In this document: positions 2,909 to 16,048 of the stretch, piece after piece | Position numbering within the stretch: the first letter of the stretch is position 1 | Layout of the letters: each line of letters starts with the position of its first letter | Made by a program: the position numbers and the translations under genes | Notes under the pieces: generated by a model | What the model was told of the DNA's origin: nothing | The model's database searches: none | Seen by the model: the letters and a program-made list of their open reading frames with translations, nothing else | Assembly (NCBI RefSeq): GCF_900182605.1 | Contig: NZ_FXTB01000001.1 | Span: 310,001-374,000, forward strand | Direction of reading: 5' to 3' | Origin: Saccharicrinis carchari | GTDB taxonomy: Bacteria > Bacteroidota > Bacteroidia > Bacteroidales > Marinilabiliaceae | DNA length: 64,000 nucleotides

Positions 2909-4354
2909 TCACTCTGATATTATTTCCCAATGTCCACCTTTGGGCGATCCAATTCTACGCAGTATTTGTCCGGTCTTTAACTTGCTTATGTTTTCCTTGA
3001 TTTTTCGTTGGGATATACCAATCAATTCTGAAAGCTCGGCCGTTGTGATATTGCTTTTTACCTTTATAAGGTTTAATATTTTTCGTTGGTTATCGGTGAC
3101 CCTATCGGTGACCCTATCGGTGACCCTATCGGTGACCCTATCGGTGATATCATTATATGGTTTTCTTACCGTTTCATCCGCACTGGGTAACAGAGGCACT
3201 ATGGTATTAAATATATCCTCTTCTTTAAATATGATGTTATCACTTCCAGAATATTTTTTCGAGAATTTGAAAACATTTTTAATGCCTGTTCCCAGTTCCT
3301 CCGATCGCCCCATTTGCGTAAATATTTGTGCAATATGTGGGTTTTTGGGATGTGGTTCGAAATTACCGGGTTTTAACAAACGATGTACGTGTGGTTTGTT
3401 GGCATTTTTTGTTTCTATCCTGTTGTTGTATATAATAAATGTAGAAGGGAAGGCGTTTGTATATTCGCGATGTATTAAAATGTTAGCAATAATCTCCCTG
3501 AAAATTTTATCGCGTAAGGAAATGCGTTGGTCATTTTGCAGAAAAAATTTATCGGGCAAATGTTTAGCCACAAAAGCCATTAACCTGTCGTAGGCTTCAA
3601 CCAGGTTACAACGTATATTATCCCTGTCGTCGTACCTATCCAAATTTACTTTTCGTACAAGTGCGTCTATTTTGTAATGGGGAATGGCGCTTTGTATCAC
3701 CTCGTCTCTGCCAAAAAGTAACAGGGCTGACATGGTAAAACCTTCTTTCCCCGTTGACAGATCTTTGCGGTATAAACCTGATGTTTTAAAGAACTCCATG
3801 TCGTTAAGTTCATTCCATGGATGATCGGGGCGATTTATACGAATAATTTTCCTAACCCGATCAACAATGCCAGCCGCAAAATCTGTTTGTACCAAAAACG
3901 GATAGATAGTGTTTTCAGAATACTGAGCACTTTTGCGGATGTATGCTTGTTTAATTTGGTCGTCCGAGCTTAAAACAAAGTCGCCATCTGCACTCCTATC
4001 GTAAATTTTTCCCTTAAATTTATGTATTTGTGAAGATATCGGTACATAAATATAAATTAGTTTTTTATTATGGTATTCTACCTCACACGCATGTATTAAG
4101 AAAGATGGAAATAACAATTGCGGATTGTTACTCGTGTTTGCTATTTGTTTACAAAATGATTCCGTGAGATTTTCACTTACACCGATAATATTTCTATCAT
4201 CATCAATCCCCAAAAGAATTTCTCCACCTTCTCGATTCAGGAAAGCCGAAATTGTCTCGAACAAGTTTGAGGGTAGTGTATCGGTAGCTTTTTTAAACTC
4301 TACAGAAATCCCTTCACCTTTTTCAAGAATTGATTTTAGTTTATTTTTAAACAC
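2909..4354 (-). CDS. AlbA_2 (Schlafen-like) ATP-binding regulator with VTDR repeats
   Basis: A 481-residue protein of the COG2865 type. Residues ~15-130 form the AlbA_2/Schlafen domain (EGISVEFKKAT, FLNREGGEILLGIDDDRNIIGV). Residues ~280-375 are the HATPase-like C-terminal half with ANILIHREYTNAFPSTFII and MGRSEELGTGIKNV. Residues ~425-481 are a winged helix (NQRKILNLIKVKSNITTAELSEL) suggesting DNA binding. Between them the linker is four perfect VTDR repeats coded by a 12-bp tandem repeat (3091-3150). The gene has its own TACTTTTG -7 box (4374-4381) and lies between polysaccharide genes, so it behaves as an autonomous accessory gene. Such proteins are thought to be transcriptional regulators or defence-related; the function here is unknown. 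Confidence 0.8.
   Translation of the reverse strand: MFKNKLKSILEKGEGISVEFKKATDTLPSNLFETISAFLNREGGEILLGIDDDRNIIGVSENLTESFCKQIANTSNNPQLLFPSFLIHACEVEYHNKKLIYIYVPISSQIHKFKGKIYDRSADGDFVLSSDDQIKQAYIRKSAQYSENTIYPFLVQTDFAAGIVDRVRKIIRINRPDHPWNELNDMEFFKTSGLYRKDLSTGKEGFTMSALLLFGRDEVIQSAIPHYKIDALVRKVNLDRYDDRDNIRCNLVEAYDRLMAFVAKHLPDKFFLQNDQRISLRDKIFREIIANILIHREYTNAFPSTFIIYNNRIETKNANKPHVHRLLKPGNFEPHPKNPHIAQIFTQMGRSEELGTGIKNVFKFSKKYSGSDNIIFKEEDIFNTIVPLLPSADETVRKPYNDITDRVTDRVTDRVTDRVTDNQRKILNLIKVKSNITTAELSELIGISQRKIKENISKLKTGQILRRIGSPKGGHWEIISE
3091..3150 (-). repeat. 12-bp in-frame tandem repeat (VTDR)n
   Basis: Four exact copies of TATCGGTGACCC plus a partial fifth, read on the minus strand as VTDR. The unit is a multiple of three, so gain or loss of copies changes linker length between the ATP-binding half and the winged helix without a frameshift. 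Confidence 0.95.
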
Positions 4355-5863: not shown

Positions 5864-7291
5864 TTAGACAAACGAAATACCTGCAATAAGGCTGCGGGCC
5901 TGGATATTGAGGTAATTGTTAAATTTTAAAAAGGTATATAGTTGGTTCATGGTCATCCAAATATAGTTATCGGGCAGTATGTCGGGTATCTCGTCGCCAG
6001 CAATAATCAACATATTTCTGTTTTGTTCGTGGTAAAACCGGCCACCTTCTTCCGATTGTAAAGCATCGAACACAATTTGATGGGCTTGGGCATTTAAAAC
6101 ATAATCGAGAAAGGGTAATGTCCCTTTTTTTGTTTCTTTGTAATTACCCGTTAAACATTGCACGGTAGGGGCAAATTCAATAATGTCACGATTGCCGCAT
6201 TCGAGCTTGGCCTGCACGGCAAAATGGAGCACGCCGTTTATTTCCTTACAGATAAATGCGCACAATCCCTCTTGTGCGGGTTGCACCATGGGCTGACTCC
6301 AATTGACCACCTCGCGGCTGCTGATGTTTACGTTTACAGCTATAATTTTAAAAAACTTATTGTCTACATGTGCTATTTCATGGTCAGTAAATATCCAGCT
6401 GTCGAGTTGCTTTAAATCTTTTTTGCTTACCTCTAAGTCATAATTGCTTTTGATATGGGTTAAAAAAGTGATGATTTCGCCAATGGAGTGCAAAGAATTG
6501 TTCTTTATCAAGGCCGATTTTAACAGGGCATTTTTAATTTCATCGTTTTGGTCGCTGTAGCCTATAAAGTTAATGAGTTCGATCACTTCTTCGCGATAAT
6601 CGCCATAGGGTATGCCGGCTATTACGGTGCGTGTATCCATATTGACCAGGTTGTCGCACTGCATCAATAGTTTTACCTGTGCCAGGGTAAGCCAAATAAA
6701 ATTATCGTGAACGGTTATGTCCTCTTCAATCTTTATAATAATGTTACGGTTTCTTTTCCGAAGGAACCTGGCGCCTTGCTCGGATTGCAACTGATCCAAC
6801 AGTATTTGGTCGGGGGCGGCATGTTGAAAATATTCGAGATAGACTGGCTTTTTACCACCATGTACCTGCGAATAATTGCTGCGGGTGGCTTGCAGGGTGG
6901 GCGACAGTTGCACATGATTGATGTTTCCGGGTTCTATTTTGGCTTGCAAAAGAAAATACAACACCCCGTTGAACTCTTTGCATATCATGCCCAAATACCC
7001 AATTTCGGGTTGATTGATAATGGGCTGGTCCCATTGGTTTATAGTTCCCCAATTGGTACGTATGTTGATGCCGTCGATGGAAAAAAATTTACCGGACGCA
7101 TGTCTTATATTCCTCTCAACCTTATCATATCCCCATTTATCCAAGGCATCGAAAGTTGTTTTGGCAACTTTGACTTCTACTTTTTGGTTTTGATCCCGCA
7201 GCCATTGCTTGATCTCCTCCAAATTGTAAAATATCCCCTCTTTGGTAAAAGAGCTCTTGATAAACATTAAGTCAGCCGTAGATAAGTTCAT
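5864..7291 (-). CDS. NDP-hexose 2,3-dehydratase (EvaA/TylX3/SpnO family)
   Basis: A 475-residue protein with the internal duplication that defines the NDP-hexose 2,3-dehydratase family: IGYLGMICKEFNGVLYFLLQ around residues 98-117 and GLCAFICKEINGVLHFAVQ around 343-361, each followed by AK(I/L)E.GN. Each half also ends in an FIWLTLAQ/YIWMTMNQ segment and an AGI(P/S) element. The enzyme removes water across C2-C3 of dTDP-4-keto-6-deoxyglucose, giving dTDP-3,4-diketo-2,6-dideoxyglucose, the entry step to 2-deoxysugars. It lies 22 bp downstream of the exporter ATPase and upstream of a Gfo/Idh/MocA reductase, so it belongs to the polysaccharide operon. The family is best known from actinomycete antibiotic clusters; RmlA/RmlB that would feed it are not in this window. 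Confidence 0.88.
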   Translation of the reverse strand: MNLSTADLMFIKSSFTKEGIFYNLEEIKQWLRDQNQKVEVKVAKTTFDALDKWGYDKVERNIRHASGKFFSIDGINIRTNWGTINQWDQPIINQPEIGYLGMICKEFNGVLYFLLQAKIEPGNINHVQLSPTLQATRSNYSQVHGGKKPVYLEYFQHAAPDQILLDQLQSEQGARFLRKRNRNIIIKIEEDITVHDNFIWLTLAQVKLLMQCDNLVNMDTRTVIAGIPYGDYREEVIELINFIGYSDQNDEIKNALLKSALIKNNSLHSIGEIITFLTHIKSNYDLEVSKKDLKQLDSWIFTDHEIAHVDNKFFKIIAVNVNISSREVVNWSQPMVQPAQEGLCAFICKEINGVLHFAVQAKLECGNRDIIEFAPTVQCLTGNYKETKKGTLPFLDYVLNAQAHQIVFDALQSEEGGRFYHEQNRNMLIIAGDEIPDILPDNYIWMTMNQLYTFLKFNNYLNIQARSLIAGISFV

Positions 7292-7313
7292 GCTCAGGTG
7301 TTGATCGTTCGGT

Positions 7314-8606
7314 TTATAAAAGGTTTTTCTCCCACTGAAACAAAGGGTGCAATGCGCCCGGTTCTTTGCCCGAGAATTGTCCTATTGCAATAGCTTTATT
7401 CGCAATAGTGAATGAAAGCAAATCATTTTCTTTTAATATGGATCTTCGTACATTTTCAACAATATAGACATCGATATAAAATGTGCCCCAATTAAAAAAA
7501 TGTTTGGGTATAGTTCCGGTTACGATATAATTGCCTTTTTCTTTTTCGTTGTCGGGTTGAATTTGAGATTGAAAAGAGCCTGCACTAAATAACTTTTGCC
7601 CTTGTTCATCTTTAAAATGTAAGGTAATGTCTATACGTTTGTTATCTGTAAGTTGTTTGTATTTGGCTATAAACTCGATTTCATCGGTCATAAGCATAGG
7701 ATCTTCAAAACCTTTGTTTTTGGCCTTTATGCCTATCTCGTTTAATTCAAACTCATCATTGGCAATTTCAGGTTTTCCGTCCCAAACTTTATGGTTGAGT
7801 AGGGTGGTGTCACCTCTTAGATAGTTGGTTACGCAGGTGTCAATATCTCCCTCAAAATAATTTTCACCATTTACTAACTGGATACCTTTTGTACAAAGCG
7901 TTTTCACACTTGCCATATTATGGCTCACAAACAGCACGGTCCGGCCATGGTTGGTGCTTACATCTTGCATTTTACCAATGGCTTTTTTTTGAAATTCAGC
8001 ATCGCCCACGGCCAGTACTTCGTCCACCACCAGTATTTCGGGCTCTAGGTGGGCGGCAATGGCAAAGCCCAGTCGCACCGTCATGCCACTGCTGTAGCGT
8101 TTGGTGGGGGTGTCTAAGTATTTGGCCACGCCGGCAAAGTCAACAATGGCTTCCATTTGCTTGTCTATCTCCCACTTGCGCATGCCCATAATGGTGCCGT
8201 TCATGTAGATATTCTCGCGGCCCGTCATCTCGGGATGGAACCCGGTGCCTACCTCCAAGAGGGAAGCCAGCCGTCCCTTTACCTTTATGCTGCCGGTGGT
8301 GGGGGAGGTTACACGGCTCAGGAGTTTTAAAAGGGTGCTTTTGCCCGCCCCGTTTTTACCGATGATGCCCAGCACTTCGCCTTCTTTAACCTCTAGGTTG
8401 ATATTGCTTAAAGCACTGATGTGCTCGCCCTTGTGGGCTGCCTGGGTCCGGTCGTTTACCTGGCCTACTTTGGCGTACGGATCGTCCTGTCCAAGTATAT
8501 TCATTCGTACGAACCTATTCAAATCATGACTTAAGGTCCCAGTTCCAACTTCCCCAAGTCTGTAAATTTTTGATAGGTTCTCTATCTTAATAACTGTCTT
8601 CGACAT
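7314..8606 (-). CDS. wzt: Polysaccharide ABC exporter ATPase with C-terminal Wzt domain
   Basis: A 430-residue ATPase. Walker A is GKNGAGKST (83-91), the ABC signature YSSGM (171-175), Walker B ILVVDEVLAVGD (191-202) and the switch His in FVSHNM. The last ~170 residues (after NYLRGDTTLLNHK) form a Wzt-type beta-sandwich that in O-antigen exporters binds the modified non-reducing end of the glycan before export. The partner permease is at 12125-12970 but is separated from it by 3.5 kb of inserted accessory genes and repeats, whereas wzm and wzt are normally adjacent. Truncated copies of its 5' end lie at 9194-9277 and 10458-10532. The cargo is probably the polysaccharide containing the trideoxy sugar; this is inference from gene order. 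Confidence 0.9.
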   Translation of the reverse strand: MSKTVIKIENLSKIYRLGEVGTGTLSHDLNRFVRMNILGQDDPYAKVGQVNDRTQAAHKGEHISALSNINLEVKEGEVLGIIGKNGAGKSTLLKLLSRVTSPTTGSIKVKGRLASLLEVGTGFHPEMTGRENIYMNGTIMGMRKWEIDKQMEAIVDFAGVAKYLDTPTKRYSSGMTVRLGFAIAAHLEPEILVVDEVLAVGDAEFQKKAIGKMQDVSTNHGRTVLFVSHNMASVKTLCTKGIQLVNGENYFEGDIDTCVTNYLRGDTTLLNHKVWDGKPEIANDEFELNEIGIKAKNKGFEDPMLMTDEIEFIAKYKQLTDNKRIDITLHFKDEQGQKLFSAGSFQSQIQPDNEKEKGNYIVTGTIPKHFFNWGTFYIDVYIVENVRRSILKENDLLSFTIANKAIAIGQFSGKEPGALHPLFQWEKNLL

Positions 8607-8688
8607 GTTTTTTGTCCGCTAATTGCGCGAATTTTCGCTAATTAAATTTTCTTAATTCGTTTAATTAGTGTAATTCGCGGATTATCTT
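8607..8688. repeat. Palindromic repeat between wzt and GxxExxY gene
   Basis: Imperfect inverted repeat: CCGCTAATTGCGCGAATTTT near 8620 pairs roughly with TAATTAGTGTAATTCGCGG near 8661-8679. Related palindromes with a (C)CACGAATT...CGAATT arm occur at 9915-10045 and 10587-10692. Confidence 0.6.
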
Positions 8689-9087
8689 TTATTTTTCTTT
8701 TACTATTCTTTTGTATTTCAATGACTGCTCACCAAAGTTAACAAGTATTCCTAATTTGTGTGTTGTAGCTTTTAAGTAATTTATAACTTGAGATTCGTGC
8801 ACACTTTCCAGGTAATTGATTGCTTTTAATTCAAGTATTATTTTATCATAACAGATAAAGTCTGCTAGGTAACATTTCTTTAAGAGTTTGCCTTTATACT
8901 CAATGGTAATGGGTACTTCTCGTATAAAAGGTATGCCTTGATTACCCAATTCTATTTCTAAAGCCTCAGCATAGACAGCTTCGAGGAAGCCACATCCTAA
9001 TTCTCGATGCACAGTCATACAAGCTCCAATAATCTTGTAGGCTTCATCTTTATAGATAAGTTCTTGTTGTTTGAGTAGATTTGGCAT
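8689..9087 (-). CDS. GxxExxY protein (PD-(D/E)XK_3 family), copy 1
   Basis: A 132-residue member of the GxxExxY family (PF13366). The naming motif is GFLEAVY (33-39), and ADFICYDKIILELKAI (residues 75-90) gives the D...ExK pattern of a PD-(D/E)XK nuclease fold. Family members are frequent lone genes in Bacteroidota, often placed in surface polysaccharide loci or other variable regions; their function is not established. It sits immediately upstream of the exporter ATPase, is flanked by palindromic repeats, and is followed upstream by a truncated wzt head. The second copy (10054-10419) is clearly related but diverged, so this is not a recent simple duplication. Confidence 0.85.
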   Translation of the reverse strand: MPNLLKQQELIYKDEAYKIIGACMTVHRELGCGFLEAVYAEALEIELGNQGIPFIREVPITIEYKGKLLKKCYLADFICYDKIILELKAINYLESVHESQVINYLKATTHKLGILVNFGEQSLKYKRIVKEK

Positions 9088-9193
9088 ATTTATTTATTAT
9101 CCACAGCCTGTCCCTTTTTACGGGAAATTACACAAATTGACGCTAATTTAATTACTCCAAGCCTGCCCCGCGCTAGGGAGGCTTGCTTTATGC

Positions 9194-9277
9194 TTAGCCG
9201 AACTTATGCGGGGTACCTACTTCTCCGAGGCGATAGACCTTGGATAAGTTCTCTATTTTAATAACGGTTTTTCTCAT
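9194..9277 (-). pseudogene. Truncated copy of the 5' end of wzt (remnant 1)
   Basis: Read on the minus strand this is an intact ATG and 27 codons whose first ~21 residues (MRKTVIKIENLSKVYRLGEV) match the start of the exporter ATPase at 8606 (MSKTVIKIENLSKIYRLGEV). After GTP the reading diverges (HKFG) and stops at 9194. It lies just 5' of GxxExxY copy 1. A complete gene does not follow, so it is a left-behind fragment, probably of an older allele or of a duplicated insertion target. Confidence 0.85.
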
Positions 9278-9359
9278 AAAATACTTCCGCAAATAAACGG
9301 ATTATTAGTTAATTGCTTCGCAATTTCTTTTGAACCGCGAAACAACGTTCGGCGTAGCC

Positions 9360-9965
9360 AATTAACGCAGATTGTAACTGCTTGCGGAGTTTTATCTTTC
9401 ATTTGTGATTTGTTCGTATATCAAATAATTAGCGTTAATCAGCGTAATTAGCGGACTATAATTTAAGCGTCATGCAAATAAAGCTACTTCTTCGCAGTTT
9501 TTTTGTCCGCGGATTTCGCGAATTAATCGAATTTTGATTGGCTGCGCCAATTAACGCAGATTGTAACTGCTTGCGGAGTTTTATCTTTCTTTTGTGATTT
9601 GTTCGTATATCAAATAATTAGCGTTAATCAGCGTAATTAGCGGACTATAATTTAAGCGTCATACAAATAAAGCTACTGCTTCGCAGTTTTTTTGTCCGCG
9701 GATTTCGCGAATTAATCGAATTTTGATTGGCTGCGCCAATTAACGCAGATTGTAACTGCTTGCGGAGTTTTATCTTTCTTTGGCGATTTGCTTGTATATC
9801 AAATAATTAGCGTTTACCCCGTGGAATCACTTTTATTTCATAGGGTTAATCAACGTAATTAGCGGACTATAATTTAGGCGTCATGCAAATAAATTTACTG
9901 CTTCGCAGTTTTTTCTTTTGAACCACGAATTTAGCGAATTAGACGAATTGTAACTGCTGTGCAGT
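9360..9965. repeat. 189-bp tandem repeat, three copies
   Basis: Three direct repeats beginning AATTAACGCAGATTGTAACT at 9360, 9549 and 9738 (spacing exactly 189 bp twice). Each contains TCAAATAATTAGCGTTAATC or a variant and ends TCCGCGGATTTCGCGAATTA in copies 1 and 2. The third copy carries an insertion of about 30 bp (TACCCCGTGGAATCACTTTT region, near 9815). No open reading frame of note. The copies fill the space between the first wzt remnant and GxxExxY copy 2. Confidence 0.9.
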
Positions 9966-10045
9966 TTTTAGAAACGTAATATAATTTTAAAGAACTACGT
10001 AGTAGTTCAATTTAATTCGTCACATTCGTTTAATTCGTGGTTCCC
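9913..10045. repeat. Palindromic element next to GxxExxY copy 2
   Basis: Inverted repeat with arms GAACCACGAATTTAGCGAAT near 9919 and ATTCGTTTAATTCGTGGTTC near 10023-10042. The latter is nearly the reverse complement of the former. An additional TTTAAAGAACTACGTAGTAG palindrome lies in its loop. Confidence 0.7.
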
Positions 10046-10053
10046 TATATTTT

Positions 10054-10419
10054 TTATTTAATAATACGTTTGTATTCAAGTGATGTTTCACCGAAGTTTA
10101 TAAGCAACCCTAATCTATAGCCCGTTGCTTTTAAATAATTGAATACTTGTGCTTCATGGATGTTATCCAATTCTTTTACTGCTTTTAGTTCTACTATTAT
10201 CTTGTCATAGCAAGTAAAATCGGCAAAATATTGATTGTTGAGTTTTATACCATCATATATGATTGTTAGGGGAGCCTCGCGATTGAAAGGGATATTTTGT
10301 TTTTTCAATTCTATTTGGAGGGCTTCCTGGTAAACTTGCTCCAAGAATCCGCATCCTAATGTGGAGTGAACTTTCATGGCTGCACCTATAATATCATAGG
10401 CCTCTTGTTTGTATAACAT
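10054..10419 (-). CDS. GxxExxY protein (PD-(D/E)XK_3 family), copy 2
   Basis: A 121-residue paralogue of the protein at 8689-9087. The motif is GFLEQVY (24-30), with the nuclease-like [15 protein letters not shown] at 66-80 and the family ending [14 protein letters not shown]. It begins [20 protein letters not shown] and lacks the short N-terminal extension of copy 1. It lies between the palindrome ending at 10045 and a second truncated wzt head (10458-10532), the same order as for copy 1. Function unknown; placement suggests an accessory cassette rather than a step in polysaccharide synthesis. Confidence 0.85.
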
Positions 10420-10457
10420 ATATTTTAAGATATGTGTATCAGTTTAAAGACTGTAGA

Positions 10458-10532
10458 CTAGGGGCCGGTGCCTACTTCGCCGAGGCGGTATACTCTGGAT
10501 AGGTTCTCTATTTTTATTACTGTCTTAGACAT
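10458..10532 (-). pseudogene. Truncated copy of the 5' end of wzt (remnant 2)
   Basis: An intact ATG and 24 codons reading MSKTVIKIENLSRVYRLGEV then GTGP and a stop. It matches the ATPase N-terminus at 8606 better than remnant 1 does (MSKTVIKIENLS identical). It lies 38 bp 5' of GxxExxY copy 2 (start at 10419). Two such heads with the same break point just after the GTG/GTP codons argue for repeated events at one site. Confidence 0.85.
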
Positions 10533-10586
10533 ATTGTTGTGTCAACGAAAATTTTATATAAATGTTACTGCTTCGCAGTTTTTTTG

Positions 10587-10692
10587 TCCACGAATTACAC
10601 GAATTAAGCGAATTTGGATTGGCTTCGCCTATTATATTTACTTCTTTAATTTGTATAATTCGTATAATTCGCCAAATTCGTGGTTTAACTTT
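10587..10692. repeat. Palindromic element without a gene
   Basis: Inverted repeat with arms CCACGAATTACACGAATTAA (10588) and ATTCGCCAAATTCGTGG (10666-10682), inner part TTGGATTGGCTTCGCC. The same arm sequence class as the elements at 8607-8688 and 9913-10045 but with no gene adjacent. Confidence 0.65.
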
Positions 10693-11106
10693 TTTTGCTA
10701 TCTTTTTTTTTACCCGTTGTAGCATTCTCCAACGGCACGCTGCCGCTGAAGCTTTAGCGTAAGAGTCCATAGCCTTATGCTTACGCCGGAGCTACAGCAT
10801 AGGCGCTACGCTTGCGCCAGAGCTACAGCGTAGGAGCATGGCGAAGGACTTGCTTATCGACGCTGTCGGGTCTAAGGACGCCAACAGGTCTGGGGACACA
10901 CCATGTTTTGTTTCCCTTTTTTCTCTCCGTTTTACGCTCATTTCTCACCGCTTACCGAATACTGAACACCGCTCACCACTCACCACTCTTCACTCACCAC
11001 TCAAAACTGTTAACTGTGGTCTGTTCCATACTCTCCGCTCTCTTGTATTCGCCCTAGCCCTTTGCTCCCCGCCCCACGCTTCTTTTTGTTTTCTCTCCTC
11101 GAAGTC
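10693..11106. other. Gene-free low-complexity stretch
   Basis: No gene is supported. It contains repeated GAAGCTTTAGCGTA / GAGCTACAGCGTA words, simple CACTCACCACTC repeats, and the segment CTTATCGACGCTGTCGGGTC (10853) that recurs at 11961. Open frames here are low-complexity and lack family resemblance. Confidence 0.6.
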
Positions 11107-11412
11107 TTATTTCGTATAAATGGTTTGTCCAAATTGGTCGATATGGTTTTTGAGCTCTTCGCTTTGGCAGTGGGTATAGTCAACCACATCGAACAAATAG
11201 GGCATGGGGCTATCTTCTTGCAGCAAGTCCTTGACATGGGCGATGGTTGTAAAATTAACCTTATCGCCATGCAAAGCCAGGTCGATATCTGATCCCTTTT
11301 TAAAATTGCCAAGTGCCCTGGAGCCAAATATGCTGGCTTTTTCTACTTCGGGGAATTTGGCTAGGGTGTTTATGATATATCTTATATCCCCTGGTTGGAT
11401 GCCGTGTGCCAT
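11107..11412 (-). CDS. mntA: MntA-like nucleotidyltransferase antitoxin
   Basis: A 101-residue minimal nucleotidyltransferase. The catalytic motif is FGSRALGNFKKGSDIDLAL (residues 29-47), GS...G..SDIDL with Asp42 and Asp44 as metal ligands. In the HepT-MntA systems described in Shewanella and others, MntA transfers AMP groups from ATP to a Tyr of the HEPN partner and so silences it. Here it follows the HEPN gene by 14 bp on the same strand, the standard arrangement. The pair sits between the two subunits of the polysaccharide exporter. Gene name assigned from family and partner, not from sequence identity to a characterised protein. Confidence 0.85.
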   Translation of the reverse strand: MAHGIQPGDIRYIINTLAKFPEVEKASIFGSRALGNFKKGSDIDLALHGDKVNFTTIAHVKDLLQEDSPMPYLFDVVDYTHCQSEELKNHIDQFGQTIYTK

Positions 11413-11426
11413 TTGTAGGGTATATC

Positions 11427-11828
11427 TTAAAGTTTTGATTCAAAAAAAACGACCAGTTTGCTTATCTCCGTAAAATAGGAAGAGCGGATCAGTTCTTCGG
11501 CTTCTCTGGCTCTATCTTCATCGTATGTATGCGCCATCAAATTTCGTTTTTGGAGGGCGTCGATCCAGATATGCCCGTCGGCAATAATTTCTATTTCAAA
11601 GGCTTTCTGAATAGTTTCGCGCGGTGTTTTAACATCAATTTGTTCACTTTCCAGATAATCTTTCAATGTTTTCCAGGCCAGCTCCAGGGTCATCTCAAAA
11701 AACTGAATGATACCTGCCCGGTATATATCGTCAGGCGCTTCAATTTTAAGCGCATTTTGCAATTGGTTAAACGCTTTGCGCAGTTGGCTATACCGTTGTT
11801 TCCAGCGTGTATCTTTTAATTTATCCAT
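11427..11828 (-). CDS. hepT: HepT-like HEPN toxin (HI0074 family)
   Basis: A 133-residue HEPN protein of the nucleotidyltransferase-substrate-binding HI0074 family. The key segment RNLMAHTYDE gives R95-N-L-M-A-H100-T-Y102, the RX4HXY motif in which R and H form the ribonuclease site and the Tyr is the residue AMPylated by MntA in characterised HepT-MntA pairs. The helical body (FFEMTLELAWKTLKDYLESE) is typical. HEPN toxins of this group cleave RNA when not modified. It is the first gene of the two-gene unit; all catalytic residues are intact so the system looks functional. Confidence 0.88.
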   Translation of the reverse strand: MDKLKDTRWKQRYSQLRKAFNQLQNALKIEAPDDIYRAGIIQFFEMTLELAWKTLKDYLESEQIDVKTPRETIQKAFEIEIIADGHIWIDALQKRNLMAHTYDEDRAREAEELIRSSYFTEISKLVVFFESKL

Positions 11829-11873
11829 TGCGTTGTTTTTAGCTTAATGTATTGTTTTAAGCTGTTGTTTATT

Positions 11874-11914
11874 CGGTATCGGTTCCTAATTCTATGGGGT
11901 AAAATACTTTACGC
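11874..11914 (-). pseudogene. Possible third wzt 5' remnant, degenerate
   Basis: Minus-strand reading KVFYPIELGTDTE resembles the wzt N-terminal segment K(I/V)YRLGEVGTGT in length and at K, E, G, T and T positions. It lies 5' of the HEPN-MNT pair, where a remnant would be expected by analogy with the two clear ones. The match is short and could be chance. Confidence 0.3.
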
Positions 11915-12124
11915 TTGTCTCTTTCTTCCTCCGCTCTCTGCTCCCTGCTCTCTGCTCTCTCGGCTTATCGACGCTGTCGGGACTGTAGACACCAACAGGT
12001 CCGGGGAGTTACATTTATTAATTTTCCTATATTTCTATCTTATTTCCTTTTACCTCTTCTTTTCGCTATTCGCTTTCCGCTTATTTCTCTCTTCTCCTAA
12101 CTCCTAATCTCTAACCCCTATTTT

Positions 12125-12970
12125 CTACACCGTATCAATAAAGTTGCGTTCGGTTTTATGGAATATCACGATGCCCGAAACCAGCAATATGGCTGCAACG
12201 GCTGCACTGTAACCCAGACTGAACCAGCTAAAATGTCCTGCCCCGAGGAAGGCATATTTAAAGCCTTCGAGGATGGGGGTGAAGGGGTTGTATAGGGCGA
12301 TCAGTTGCAGTTTGGGATTTTCAATGGTGCTGACCGGGTAGATAACCGGACTGGCATACATCAGCAACTGTACGCCAAAGGCCAGCAGAAAGGTGAGGTC
12401 GCGGTATTTGGTGGTGAGGCTGGTAAATATGATACCGGCACCCAGTCCGTAAGCTGCCATCAGTAGGATGTACACAGGCAGCAGGGCGATGTTCCAGTTG
12501 GGATTCACGCTGGTGTCGCCGCTAAAAATATAATACAGGTAAACGGCCATAAACAACATAAACTGTATGCCAAATTTAATGAGTCCGCTGGTTACCTTGG
12601 CAAAGGGCATGATGAGGCGGGGAAAATACACCTTGCCAAAGATGGCGGCATTTTCTGTAAATGTTTTGGCGGTGGTGTTAAAGCTCTCGGCAAAGTAGTT
12701 CCATATGGTGATGCCGGCCAGGTAAAACAGTGCCTGTGGAACGCCGTCGGTAGATATCTTGGCGATGTTACCAAACACCACGATATATATGAGCGTGGTC
12801 ATGATGGGCTGCACGATAAACCAGATGGGTCCCAACACGGTTTGTTTGTATATGGTGATGATATCGCGTTTCACGAACATCTTGAGTAAGTCGCGGTAGG
12901 CCCATATCTCTTTAAAATTGATATCGAAGGCGTGCCGCTTTGGGCGTATGATTAAGTCGTAATTTTCCAA
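12125..12970 (-). CDS. wzm: Polysaccharide ABC exporter permease (ABC-2 type)
   Basis: A 281-residue ABC-2 permease with about six membrane segments. The N-terminal WAYRDLLKMFVKRDIITIYK amphipathic helix followed by QTVLGPIWFIVQPIMTTLIY is characteristic of Wzm/TagG/KpsM-type exporters. Other landmarks are YLAGITIWNYFAES and ASPVIYPVSTIENPKLQ, followed by YNPFTPILEGFKYAFLG. It works with the Wzt-type ATPase at 7314-8606 to move undecaprenyl-linked glycan across the inner membrane. It is the second gene of the locus after upxY; the ATPase should follow directly but is displaced by accessory cassettes. Confidence 0.9.
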   Translation of the reverse strand: MENYDLIIRPKRHAFDINFKEIWAYRDLLKMFVKRDIITIYKQTVLGPIWFIVQPIMTTLIYIVVFGNIAKISTDGVPQALFYLAGITIWNYFAESFNTTAKTFTENAAIFGKVYFPRLIMPFAKVTSGLIKFGIQFMLFMAVYLYYIFSGDTSVNPNWNIALLPVYILLMAAYGLGAGIIFTSLTTKYRDLTFLLAFGVQLLMYASPVIYPVSTIENPKLQLIALYNPFTPILEGFKYAFLGAGHFSWFSLGYSAAVAAILLVSGIVIFHKTERNFIDTV

Positions 12971-13267
12971 TTTGTATGTTGTTATCTGTTAGGTTCTTGT
13001 TTTTAGTTCATAGTTGTTAGCTCTTAGTTTTAAGCTGTTAGGTTTTAGCTGTTAGGTTTTAGTTTTTAGTTCTTAGTGCCTTCCCTCTAACTCCTACCCC
13101 CTTACTCCTACCCCCTAACTCCTACCACCTAACCCTTATCTCCCAACTATTGACTGTACCTCACGGCTTCGCCTTGCTCAGTCCCATTTTTTGGGGTGAG
13201 TAGCTGAAAGAAATGAGGTGATACCTTGTTTTAATTGCCTGTAGGCAAGTGGTTTGGTGTTGTAGCG

Positions 13268-13801
13268 TTATTTTTCTACCGTGGCTTCGTCCAGGTTAAT
13301 CACCAGGGTGTAGCCTATGTTGGTAATGTTCAGGTACAGCTTTTTGGTGCCCTGCACATTCTGCACAATGCCTTTTATACCCTTTAAAGGGCCTGAGGTT
13401 ACAGTAATCTCTTCCCCTTTTCTTATTCTTCCGGCCTCCACGTCAAAGTTAATTTTATTTTCGATGGTGCGTTGCATGGCCAGCATCTGGTATTCGGGTA
13501 TGACAAGTGCCTGTCCTTTATGCGAAACATAGGCCACCACGCCGTTTACCTCAAATACGCTTCGGTACTGATCGGGTGTTATTTTAACAAAAATATAGGA
13601 ACTGATGACGGGCGATTCCACCCATTTTTTGCGGTCGCTCCATTGTTTCAGCACGCGTTTTAAGGGCAGGTAGTTGATAATGCCCAACTTATTGAGTCCT
13701 TCCGCCACTTTCTTTTCGGCCCTGCTTTTGGTATAAAGGGCATACCAGTTATGTGTTGTTGTGTCTCCTTTCAAAATTGAGTAATTTTTTTCAACCGGCA
13801 A
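13268..13801 (-). CDS. UpxY-family transcription antiterminator (NusG paralogue)
   Basis: About 177 residues of a specialised NusG protein. The NGN domain starts at NWYALYTKSRAEKKVAEGLN and contains SSYIFVKITPDQY, and the KOW segment is around GEEITVTSGPLKGIKGIVQN. In Bacteroides, UpxY proteins are coded first in capsule operons and let RNA polymerase read through the long 5' leader. This gene is likewise first in the locus. No ATG lies in frame before NWYALYT: the frame offers TTG at 13801 or TTG at 13774. The 13801 TTG is the end of a perfect -7 box (13799-13806), so the 13774 start, or leaderless translation, should be considered. Confidence 0.85.
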   Translation of the reverse strand: MPVEKNYSILKGDTTTHNWYALYTKSRAEKKVAEGLNKLGIINYLPLKRVLKQWSDRKKWVESPVISSYIFVKITPDQYRSVFEVNGVVAYVSHKGQALVIPEYQMLAMQRTIENKINFDVEAGRIRKGEEITVTSGPLKGIKGIVQNVQGTKKLYLNITNIGYTLVINLDEATVEK

Positions 13802-14125: not shown

Positions 14126-14438
14126 TCTAACCTCTAACCCCTAATCTCTAACCCCTAATCTCTAACCCCTAATCTCTAACCCCTAACCTCTAACCCCTAA
14201 CCTCTAACCCCTAACCTCTAACCCCTAACCTCTAACCCCTAATCTCTAACCCCTAATCTCTAACCCCTAATCTCTAACCCCTAATCTCTAACCCCTAATC
14301 TCTAACCCCTAATCTCTAACCCCTAATCTCTAACCCCTAATCTCTAACCCCTAATCTCTAACCCCTAATCTCTAACCCCTAACCCCTAACCCCTAACCCC
14401 TAACCTCTAACCTCTAATTTCTAACCTCTAACCTCTAA
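14126..14438. repeat. 14-bp telomere-like tandem array
   Basis: About 22 near-perfect copies of CTAACCCCTAATCT or CTAACCCCTAACCT, ending in four CTAACCC-type heptamers and degenerate CTAACCT units. Block changes between the AATCT and AACCT variants suggest expansion by slippage or unequal crossing over. The minus strand is G-rich (TTAGGGGTTAGAGA), with GGGG every 14 nt, so quadruplex formation is possible on the strand that is non-template for the polysaccharide operon. Confidence 0.95.
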
Positions 14439-14839
14439 GCTCTTAATTTCTCAATTATTATAAACGCGGTCAGATTTATCGACGTCAACAGGTTTTGGAA
14501 TTTCCATCGATTTATTTCCCTTTATTTCATCTGTCTAAATATATTTTTTAACGGCCAGATGGAACTCGCCACATTAGTCATTCTCCTGTGTGAGCGAGTA
14601 CTCTCTCCGCTTTGGCGGAGCTGGCTATGGCTCGTTTCATATGTCTAACGGTTCTTTGCTTTCCGCTCTCCCGTCTTCGCTCAATAGCCCCGGCAGGTTT
14701 AGGTCGTCGCAATTGTCGCAATCCCCTGGTATTTACTCGGGGTGCGACATTTACATGGCACACATTGTCGCACGCTGAGCTTTTAGTACTCTACGCTAAT
14801 GTATTTGGGTTATAGGCTTTCGCAAAGGAGGAACCCTCA
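14439..14839. other. Gene-free stretch between array and pfk
   Basis: No supported gene. A fragment ATTTATCGACGTCAACAGGT (14478) resembles the CTTATCGACGCTGTCGG... CCAACAGGTC repeats at 10853 and 11961. Short open frames here have no recognisable features. Confidence 0.5.
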
Positions 14840-16048
14840 TTAATCCGCGGTTAAATACATCATCGGATCACCAATAATATTCTGATAGATGGGTCTGTAC
14901 CGTTTGGTATCGTAATACTTTTCTATGTTTACTTTTTTTATGCTTTGGCCTTTTTCATCTTTTTTTACAGCCTCTATCGACACGTAATCAAACTTACCAT
15001 TTTTAACACAAACCATGTATCCTGATTCGCCTTTTTTAATTAAGTCCAGGGCCATGTTTCCGTAGGTGGTAGGAATAATTGAATCCAGCGCATCGGGTTG
15101 ACCTGAGCGCACCAGATAACCCAGTTTTTGGTTGATGATGTTTATTTGGCGTCCATGGTTGAATTTGGAAGAGTGGCGTTTAAGCTCTTTGCCAATCATT
15201 TCGCCTATGCCACCTAATTTTTTATGTCCAAAAGCATCGGTTTCGGAATCGGCATACACGGTGTCCATTCCGTTAAAAGTGGCGCCTTCCGAAATCAGCA
15301 CTACGGAATAATTACTGGGGTTGTTTCTCCGGTCTTCCACCAGCAATTCGGTTAAATGTTCGGTGTTGATAGGAAATTCCGGAATTACGCAACGGTCGGC
15401 TGCACCGCCTATGGTGGGCATAAGTGCTGAGAAACCGGCATTACGGCCAAAAACTTCCAGCACCAAAAAGCGTTCGTGCGAACCGGCACAGGTGCGAAGC
15501 TCGTGGGTTAACTCAATGGTGCGTGTAATGCAAGTACTAAATCCGATGCAGTACTCGGTGCCGGGAACATCCCCATCCATGGTTTTGGGAATGCCTATTA
15601 CCTTGATGCCCTCTTTGTGCAGTCGCACGGCATAGCTCAGGGTGTCGTCGCCACCTATGGGAATGAGGTAATCAATACCTAAATGATTAAGGTTGGCCAC
15701 TGCCTCATCTGTAAGGTCGTTATATTCATCCGTATAGGTGCCCTTTAAATGCTCGGGCAGATCGTTCAGGGCCACCCGGGTGGCTTTGGTGCGGCTCGAG
15801 TGGAGAAAAGTGCCTCCCGTACGGCCAATCCGGTTAACCGTGAGCTCGGTGAGGGGCATGCAATAAGCTTGTTGATCCAGGGGTTTGGAACGGTCGATAC
15901 TGATAACGCCTTTCCATCCGTTTTTAATACCAATAACCTGATAACCTTCGCGTATAGCCCGCAAGGTAACCGCGCGTATTGCGGGGTTAAGACCGGGCAC
16001 ATCGCCTCCTCCGGTGAGGATGCCTATGGTAAGTCCGTTTTTGCTCAT
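14840..16048 (-). CDS. 6-phosphofructokinase, PPi-dependent type
   Basis: A 402-residue phosphofructokinase. The substrate loops are TGGGDVPGLN (12-21), IGGDDT (131-136) and IPKTMDGDVPGTE (153-165). The second Asp of GGDDT and the Lys of PKT are the residues that mark pyrophosphate-using enzymes; ATP-using enzymes have GGDGS and PGT at these places. It should therefore interconvert fructose 6-phosphate and fructose 1,6-bisphosphate with PPi as donor, reversible in vivo. NAGFSALMPTI and the hexose-phosphate site around SHERFLVLEVFGR are conserved. Single-gene unit reading away from the helicase gene. Family-level call is firm; donor specificity is inferred from the two residues. Confidence 0.9.
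   Translation of the reverse strand: MSKNGLTIGILTGGGDVPGLNPAIRAVTLRAIREGYQVIGIKNGWKGVISIDRSKPLDQQAYCMPLTELTVNRIGRTGGTFLHSSRTKATRVALNDLPEHLKGTYTDEYNDLTDEAVANLNHLGIDYLIPIGGDDTLSYAVRLHKEGIKVIGIPKTMDGDVPGTEYCIGFSTCITRTIELTHELRTCAGSHERFLVLEVFGRNAGFSALMPTIGGAADRCVIPEFPINTEHLTELLVEDRRNNPSNYSVVLISEGATFNGMDTVYADSETDAFGHKKLGGIGEMIGKELKRHSSKFNHGRQINIINQKLGYLVRSGQPDALDSIIPTTYGNMALDLIKKGESGYMVCVKNGKFDYVSIEAVKKDEKGQSIKKVNIEKYYDTKRYRPIYQNIIGDPMMYLTAD

Follow-up and report, generated by a model that had tools for sequence, protein, structure and literature searches.

Integrons hold arrays of small cassettes in the same direction, many of them toxin-antitoxin genes, with a repeated sequence after each. Elements of the SXT type, in turn, carry an integrase and use a fixed site; SXT itself enters the 5' end of prfC and supplies a new start, with which the host gene remains functional, and the old 5' end stays on the far side. 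The locus that we describe here lies in a 64,000-nucleotide stretch of the Saccharicrinis carchari genome (NCBI RefSeq assembly GCF_900182605.1, contig NZ_FXTB01000001.1, positions 310,001 to 374,000; hereafter, the window), between wzm and wzt, which encode the permease and the ATPase of a polysaccharide exporter. At this locus, genes of toxin-antitoxin and GxxExxY type are interspersed with truncated starts of wzt, which we refer to as stubs. Unlike integrons, the stub arrays of the 11 genomes searched have no tyrosine recombinase. Nor do stubs show a site with a fixed core; what is repeated is part of the host gene, and it ends variably, from codon 8 to codon 138. As to SXT-type elements, neither an integrase nor a fixed site was found here.

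Two processes come closer. First, for the orphan immunity arrays of the type VI secretion system in Vibrio, sequential displacement has been proposed, with homology as an anchor on one side and an irregular junction on the other (Kirchberger et al., 2017; PMC5361080). Protective old genes stay as an array and no integrase is seen, as here; in Vibrio, however, whole immunity genes remain on the 3' side, whereas the stubs are 5' pieces of the very gene that would serve as the anchor, and the cargo here, next to a polysaccharide exporter, is of intracellular toxin-antitoxin and GxxExxY type. Second, homology-facilitated illegitimate recombination, described experimentally, combines one homologous and one irregular junction, and places foreign DNA beside a kept gene (PMC3240628); the proposed stub process would share this combination. 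The events described there are single laboratory ones, most of which involve a similarly sized deletion and microhomology of 3-10 bp. The Vibrio arrays are the closest precedent, and the stub arrays would be a mirror-image variant of a known displacement process, with the gene's own 5' ends as fossils. No title or abstract start in the open-licence literature searched was on wzt stubs or GxxExxY arrays.

Our interpretation, to which we give a probability of roughly 0.57, is that the stubs are 5' ends of earlier resident wzt genes, left by additive recombination. The locus would thus most likely owe its make-up to repeated gene import, of which it would be the fossil record, and not to a precise insertion enzyme.

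Truncated wzt starts in arrays of small genes

On the minus strand, the features of the locus follow each other in this order:

12125..12970, minus strand: wzm, ABC-2 type permease of the polysaccharide exporter (PF01061, 71.8 bits, cut-off 26.9)
11427..11828, minus strand: HepT-type partner of a toxin-antitoxin pair (TIGR01987, 104 bits, cut-off 55.8; PF08780)
11107..11412, minus strand: MntA-like nucleotidyltransferase of the pair (Polbeta, 55 bits, cut-off 26.9)
10464..10532, minus strand: stub h2, initial 23 codons of a wzt allele, then a stop (score 108 of 112)
10054..10419, minus strand: GxxExxY gene 2, PD-(D/E)XK superfamily (TIGR04256, 158.7 bits)
9357..9914, from GxxExxY gene 2 to h1: two 189-bp tandem repeats (98%) plus a partial third
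9212..9277, minus strand: stub h1, initial 22 codons of a wzt allele (score 98 of 112)
9166..9213, minus strand: hairpin at the h1 break (covariance model, 61.5 bits; the model includes this sequence)
8689..9087, minus strand: GxxExxY gene 1 (TIGR04256, 149.9 bits)
8607..8688, minus strand: leader from GxxExxY gene 1 to wzt, with ends resembling inverted repeats (sequence reading, repeat search)
7314..8606, minus strand: intact wzt, exporter ATPase, apparent mosaic with its best break at about codon 66, near 8409 (PF00005, 81 bits)

Hidden Markov models (HMMs) bear out the identities given in the original prediction for wzm, wzt, the HepT-type gene and the GxxExxY genes, which also match PF13366; wzt falls below the cut-off of PF14524 (Wzt_C). 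For the MntA-like gene the nucleotidyltransferase domain is clear, with Polbeta and NTP_transf_2 above cut-off, and the specific name is less so (33 bits against the MntA model NF047752, cut-off 60). As a type VII HepT/MntA pair, the partners are adjacent, the HepT-type gene lying above the TIGR01987 cut-off and its neighbour below that of NF047752.

Both stubs retain their ATG, are oriented like wzt and lie upstream of the full gene. Stub h2 (10532-10464) reads MSKTVIKIENLSRVYRLGEVGTG, then P-stop, and breaks between GGCACCGGC and CCCTAG, at codon 23/24; h1 (9277-9212) reads MRKTVIKIENLSKVYRLGEVGT, then PHKFG-stop, and passes at codon 22, between GGTAC and CCCGC, into the hairpin. The next gene begins 44 bp after h2 and 124 bp after h1. 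Against the first 23 wzt residues the scores are 108 (h2) and 98 (h1) of 112, and full wzt is the sole other match in the window that reaches 38. Two truncated heads, of 22 and 23 codons and with intact ATG, are therefore present as first proposed; a third candidate (11874-11914) is explained by chance, its best ungapped score being 23, against a mean of 21 in letter shuffles, of which 83 of 300 scored at least as well. Nor do the heads share a breakpoint, since h1 and h2 already differ and those of relatives range from codon 8 to codon 138.

Remnants of earlier residents, in order beside one intact gene, are present in at least 10 of 71 genomes of the family (G000, G009, G011, G019, G020, G029, G065, G066, G079, G081) and at five loci elsewhere. 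The family figure is a lower bound, as it comes from a 34-residue head query over the 71 genomes plus finer scans of fetched loci only. The loci beyond the family are L149, from a metagenome-assembled genome (MAG) of Draconibacterium orientale, with three stubs; L166, from a Bacteroidales MAG, with one; and G197, G106 and G104, from other families of the same order, with one, two and one, respectively. By hand count this gives 32 stubs, 24 in the family and eight elsewhere, the second G081 stub being seen by eye only; some are shared by descent, so that 32 stubs are not 32 events.

All stubs keep the 5' end of the gene. The start codon itself is lost in stub a of G011 and in the second G081 stub, and one G029 stub begins with CTG. 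Wherever the end of an array is visible, one intact wzt terminates it. Within 30 of about 430 codons, 21 of the 32 stubs have ended, namely at codons 8, 8, 10, 10, 10, 15, 17, 17, 20, 21, 22, 22, 22, 23, 23, 24-26 (four in G009), 26 and 29, whereas uniform truncation would place about two of 32 there. The longer ones end at codons 36-41, 40, 50, 50, 65, 75 (interrupted by a hairpin), 80, 80, about 100 (twice) and 138. This clustering, together with the retained 5' end, is not what full exporter genes deleted at random points would leave, which was the outcome that the original prediction had set against itself. The 10-codon stub of G019 comes from a prefix scan; a leader duplication (140 bp, 84%) supports it.

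Among 80 named loci, taken from a longer list, wzt could be placed in 70, and the other 10 were left out. Among the matches listed, three of the 70 have stubs (L132, which is G019, L149 and L166), and in 29 of the 70 the gap from wzm to wzt is below 60 bp. One further candidate, L173, was rejected as a stub, as it matches wzt over 718 bp and is a second copy.

The cargo between stubs is mostly of toxin-antitoxin and GxxExxY type. From 95 open reading frames in or beside the arrays, 12 were left out by eye (stub frames, overlaps and two neighbours) and 83 were scanned; counting the best 25 of 44 families, the 12 genomes or loci hold 12 PDDEXK_3 (GxxExxY), 10 nucleotidyltransferase, eight PIN, five HEPN, four HepT-type, four zeta, three AbiEii and three UPF0175 frames, and others. 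Of 31 loci showing both exporter genes, 19 have a GxxExxY gene between them, once split and once beside broken genes; wzm and wzt almost touch or overlap in L048, L053 and L058. Stub-free gaps elsewhere in Bacteroidota hold other genes too, some of them larger and glycosyltransferase-like (judged by eye, no HMM).

We considered GxxExxY as the cause of the stubs and rejected it: among 40 fetched GxxExxY loci, four lie at wzm or within stub arrays (L080, L081, L085, L100), and the other 36 are without a stub of another gene.

Allelic origin of the stubs and of the resident gene

We set 15 of the 24 stubs in the family against 25 wzt starts. In 11 of the 14 cases in which the genome of the stub also has a full wzt, the wzt of another genome is closer. 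In the window, the full wzt nearest to h1 is that of G002 (0.86), with its own at 0.71 and rank 18 of 25; for h2 it is that of G004 (0.86), its own being at 0.77 and rank 13. Differences from the own wzt are mostly synonymous, namely 13 synonymous and two nonsynonymous in the 22 codons of h1, and 12 and three in 24 codons of h2. As a fresh duplication would be identical, these comparisons show the stubs to be mostly not copies of the gene now present, but what appear to be diverged alleles. A simple duplication of heads, as one variant of the original prediction had it, does not fit heads that are usually not nearest to the resident gene.

The intact wzt of the window appears, in turn, to be a mosaic, which is supported by several comparisons. 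First, codons 61-100 and 141-180 are clearly nearest to G002 of the same genus (0.89 and 0.93), and codons 1-60 are not near it (0.76 and 0.69). Second, the best break, at codon 66, was reached by none of 2000 codon permutations. Third, GxxExxY gene 1, leader and wzt start match other genera as one block (G070, 867 bits; G062, 786; G016, 724); within the genus, G005 matches this block whole, at 70% and 478 bits, and G004 and G007 match in pieces only. The wzt body alone is nearest to G002, at 85% over 596 bp. Fourth, GxxExxY gene 1 shares 86% identity with its counterpart in G070 and about 64% or less with those in G004, G005 and G007 of the same genus; GxxExxY gene 2 shares 86-87% with the genes of G018 and G065. 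A foreign origin for the block of cassette, leader and start is thus supported, and a foreign cassette with its wzt start ahead of a probably native body is well supported. On its coding part only, h1 may be the native 5' end belonging to this body. Between leaders, G002 gives a clear match to h2 (score 63; none of 200 shuffles did as well).

A comparison of wzm-wzt junctions, as suggested in the original prediction, shows that G079 and G011, of one genus, differ by one cassette plus stub. Both share a unit made of leader, stub and zeta-like cassette (93% over 1832 bp). In G079 a full wzt follows within about 240 bp of this unit; in G011 an extra unit of GxxExxY gene, leader and 15-codon stub precedes the full wzt, and this extra unit resembles the usual arrangement of GxxExxY gene, leader and wzt in G029 (83% over 843 bp). 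The difference may reflect either a gain in G011 or a loss in G079. In G197, two PIN-like pairs (by eye) each abut a wzt start, the first a 21-codon stub and the second a gene open to the contig end. Successive entry at the 5' end of wzt is borne out to this extent, with cassettes repeatedly just 5' of wzt and a wzt start after each; entry at one exact place is not.

Some units appear to have been reshuffled later. G081 has a 342-bp direct repeat (95.6%) of GxxExxY tail and leader around a stub, an AlbA-like gene and GxxExxY; the G009 stubs have a common internal stop, with near-identical flanks for three; and in L149 two stubs end alike and are followed by related genes. These repeats and shared ends suggest that leader and stub repeats also serve unequal exchange.

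Hairpins, repeats and recombinase searches

A hairpin of about 50 nt (CCCCGAATAAGTTCGGCTAAGC...AAATCGGGG) lies within or ends wzt stubs of five genomes, seven stubs in all, its position being codon 15, 22 or 36:

window 9166-9213, minus strand: hairpin copy
L037 3071-3123, 7508-7560 and 9899-9950, plus strand: three copies
L057 2989-3038, minus strand: one copy
L055 2981-3033, minus strand: one copy
L113 11421-11472, minus strand: one copy

At 7508 of L037, wzt resumes beyond the hairpin. The window copy folds at -18.4 kcal/mol (z -2.3). As a dispersed repeat the hairpin was rejected, an exact 15-mer occurring once each in three of eight genomes, always at a stub; as a known RNA it was rejected as well, with no Rfam match up to E 1 in positions 7000-13500. 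A covariance model built from the seven copies and run on the 71 genomes, with 82 candidates scored per genome, found those seven strongly and three weak matches elsewhere (E 0.05-0.25). The junction with the hairpin at codon 22 is common to the window, G066, G020 and G011 (stub e), and three of these heads are nearest to their own genome or genus.

The arrays of 11 stub-bearing genomes gave no match to PF00589 (tyrosine recombinase) or PF00239 (serine recombinase), in a search that did not include transposase families and in which two arrays were on contigs of 8 and 14 kb. The nearest PF00589 match on the same contig is about 36-45 kb off in G066, G065 and G019, and about 119 kb off in the genome of the window. 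A mechanism that inserts genes precisely, the core of the original prediction, finds no support in this search or in the varying breakpoints.

Other repeats were seen at or near these loci. Imperfect inverted repeats (type GTC-C/A-GCGAATTACGCGAATTAA) stand on either side of the GxxExxY genes that separate wzm from wzt (window 8607-8688 and 10580-10690; L039, L042, L043), which gives the unit the look of a present or former element. In L043, at 9367 and 9470 read on the minus strand, a truncated GxxExxY start of about 22 codons stands ahead of a GxxExxY gene with a repeat-like leader between, the same pattern as that of the wzt stubs on a different gene. In L110 (contig C34 of G009), an 85-nt palindrome (CCTTCGCTGGCGCG...CGCGCCAGCGAAGG; for example, 12398-12484 and 15708-15792) has many copies in the contig and ends three of the four wzt stubs. 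A wzt remnant of about 100 codons without the P-loop region is common to two genomes of one genus, with the same end base (L037 7401-7740, L061 9901-10220).

Farther from the exporter genes, about twenty head-to-tail copies of a 14-nt unit, CCCCTAATCTCTAA, occupy window positions 14127-14444, downstream of the promoter side of a NusG-like gene. An AlbA-like gene lies near the locus (window 2909-4354, minus strand) and a second one within a stub array (L112 4304-5725, minus strand); both have short in-frame repeats at the same place (TDRV x4, EGLN x4), before a C-terminal winged-helix part (by eye).

Origin of the arrays and its meaning

In the process that we propose, a donor fragment, consisting of a GxxExxY or toxin-antitoxin cassette, its leader and the 5' part of a donor wzt, would enter. 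On the wzt side, RecA-dependent homologous recombination in the conserved ATPase half of the resident wzt would restore a complete, hybrid gene; on the cassette side, an irregular join within the first codons of the resident wzt would leave the older cassette and a 5' stub upstream. Repeated rounds would give (stub-cassette)n-wzt. The joint must fall between the older cassette and the exchange point, which would hold it near the start of wzt. Leader and stub repeats, once present, would permit unequal crossing-over, by which units may be duplicated and shuffled. Selection may act as a filter, in that events deleting a resident toxin-antitoxin pair would be selected against and additive events would survive. 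We infer one homologous and one irregular exchange because the remnants are 5'-only, their ends are short and varying, foreign starts stand on a probably native body, and the older cassettes are intact.

Several observations weigh against this interpretation. The arrays of G079 and L149 open with a stub without a preceding toxin-antitoxin gene, contrary to a strict addiction filter, and no donor locus with a matching joint was seen, larger strain collections not being searched. The own wzt is nearest for three of the 14 stubs (G011 e, G079, G066). In the mosaic gene, codons 101-140 and 181-220 have other genomes as close as G002, and the G000-G002 pair is second, not first, of 231 genome pairs in left-right difference (0.181; mean 0.069, sd 0.048). 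The G002 leader matches the leader of h1 (32; reached in 0 of 200 shuffles) and that of full wzt (30; in 1 of 200) weakly and about equally, which slightly lowers our confidence. Finally, the longer remnants, of 36-138 codons, show that erosion also occurs.

Such erosion is central to a rather unlikely alternative, in which whole cassette-wzt units were duplicated in tandem, locally or from other strains, and the redundant upstream wzt then decayed. It would accommodate the 138-codon remnant of G029, those of about 100 codons in G011 and G079, from which the P-loop region is deleted, and a frameshifted near-complete wzt in G073, as well as the 342-bp repeat of G081, the common stop and flanks in G009 and the common end point of the L149 pair; a wzt fragment covering residues 82-136, found where the G104 contig is cut, could stem from the body of the gene alone. 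Together with the G073 gene, this fragment fits 5'-only remnants poorly. Random erosion, however, should leave tails and middles as often as heads. We searched nine arrays, from 9 to 16 kb upstream to 0 to 8 kb downstream, using as queries four segments of the wzt that belongs to each. Eight of the nine matched residues 1-60, G019 giving no match; residues from 61 onward were seen only attached to a stub (G011, G029, G079); and residues 161-262 and the C-terminal part had no match in the eight testable arrays, that of G197 being cut by the contig end. A general scan of 83 sources agrees, as its 17 rows of copied gene starts outside long reading frames comprise 14 of wzt (overlapping loci counted repeatedly), two of GxxExxY (L043, L044) and one other (L059), and none of its 15 middle and eight tail rows is of wzt. 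Since the C-terminal parts are highly variable, a foreign tail could escape these searches. Duplication and erosion, moreover, do not predict a mosaic gene.

An unlikely variant would turn the leader with its stub, and wzt, into paired homology arms derived from one target gene, the cassette between them entering the wzt of relatives, even an empty one. Ordinary homologous recombination would then add the cassette and rebuild the gene, amounting to an integrase-free, integron-like homing of toxin-antitoxin cassettes to a surface-polysaccharide exporter, of which the hairpin junction shared at codon 22 could be a trace. It is improbable, in turn, that leader and stub units were retained for a function, such as supplying a promoter and a translation start to the cassette that follows, or encoding leader peptides. 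Leader and start are always the retained part, the next gene follows h2 and h1 closely, with like distances in G011, and the coding sense is conserved, which an earlier life as wzt explains; however, the start codon is lost or an early stop occurs in G011 a, the second G081 stub, all four G009 stubs and G020. A dedicated site-specific element or transposon that inserts cassettes at the 5' end of wzt, and restores the gene with a start that it carries or duplicates, is very improbable, as the use of one gene in several lineages, the hairpin found strongly nowhere but at stubs in 71 genomes and the repeat-like ends around GxxExxY are outweighed by breaks over codons 8-138 (the hairpin itself at 15, 22 and 36), heads that are not duplicates, the recombinase-free arrays (transposase families not searched) and the 36 stub-free GxxExxY loci away from wzt.

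If additive recombination is the correct explanation, these arrays would be a readable record of how small, possibly addictive genes accumulate, with no recombinase of their own, at a gene involved in selecting the surface polysaccharide for export. Short wzt-like frames beside GxxExxY or toxin-antitoxin genes should then be annotated as leftovers, not as genes. Resident toxin-antitoxin genes, in turn, would steer recombination towards addition over replacement.

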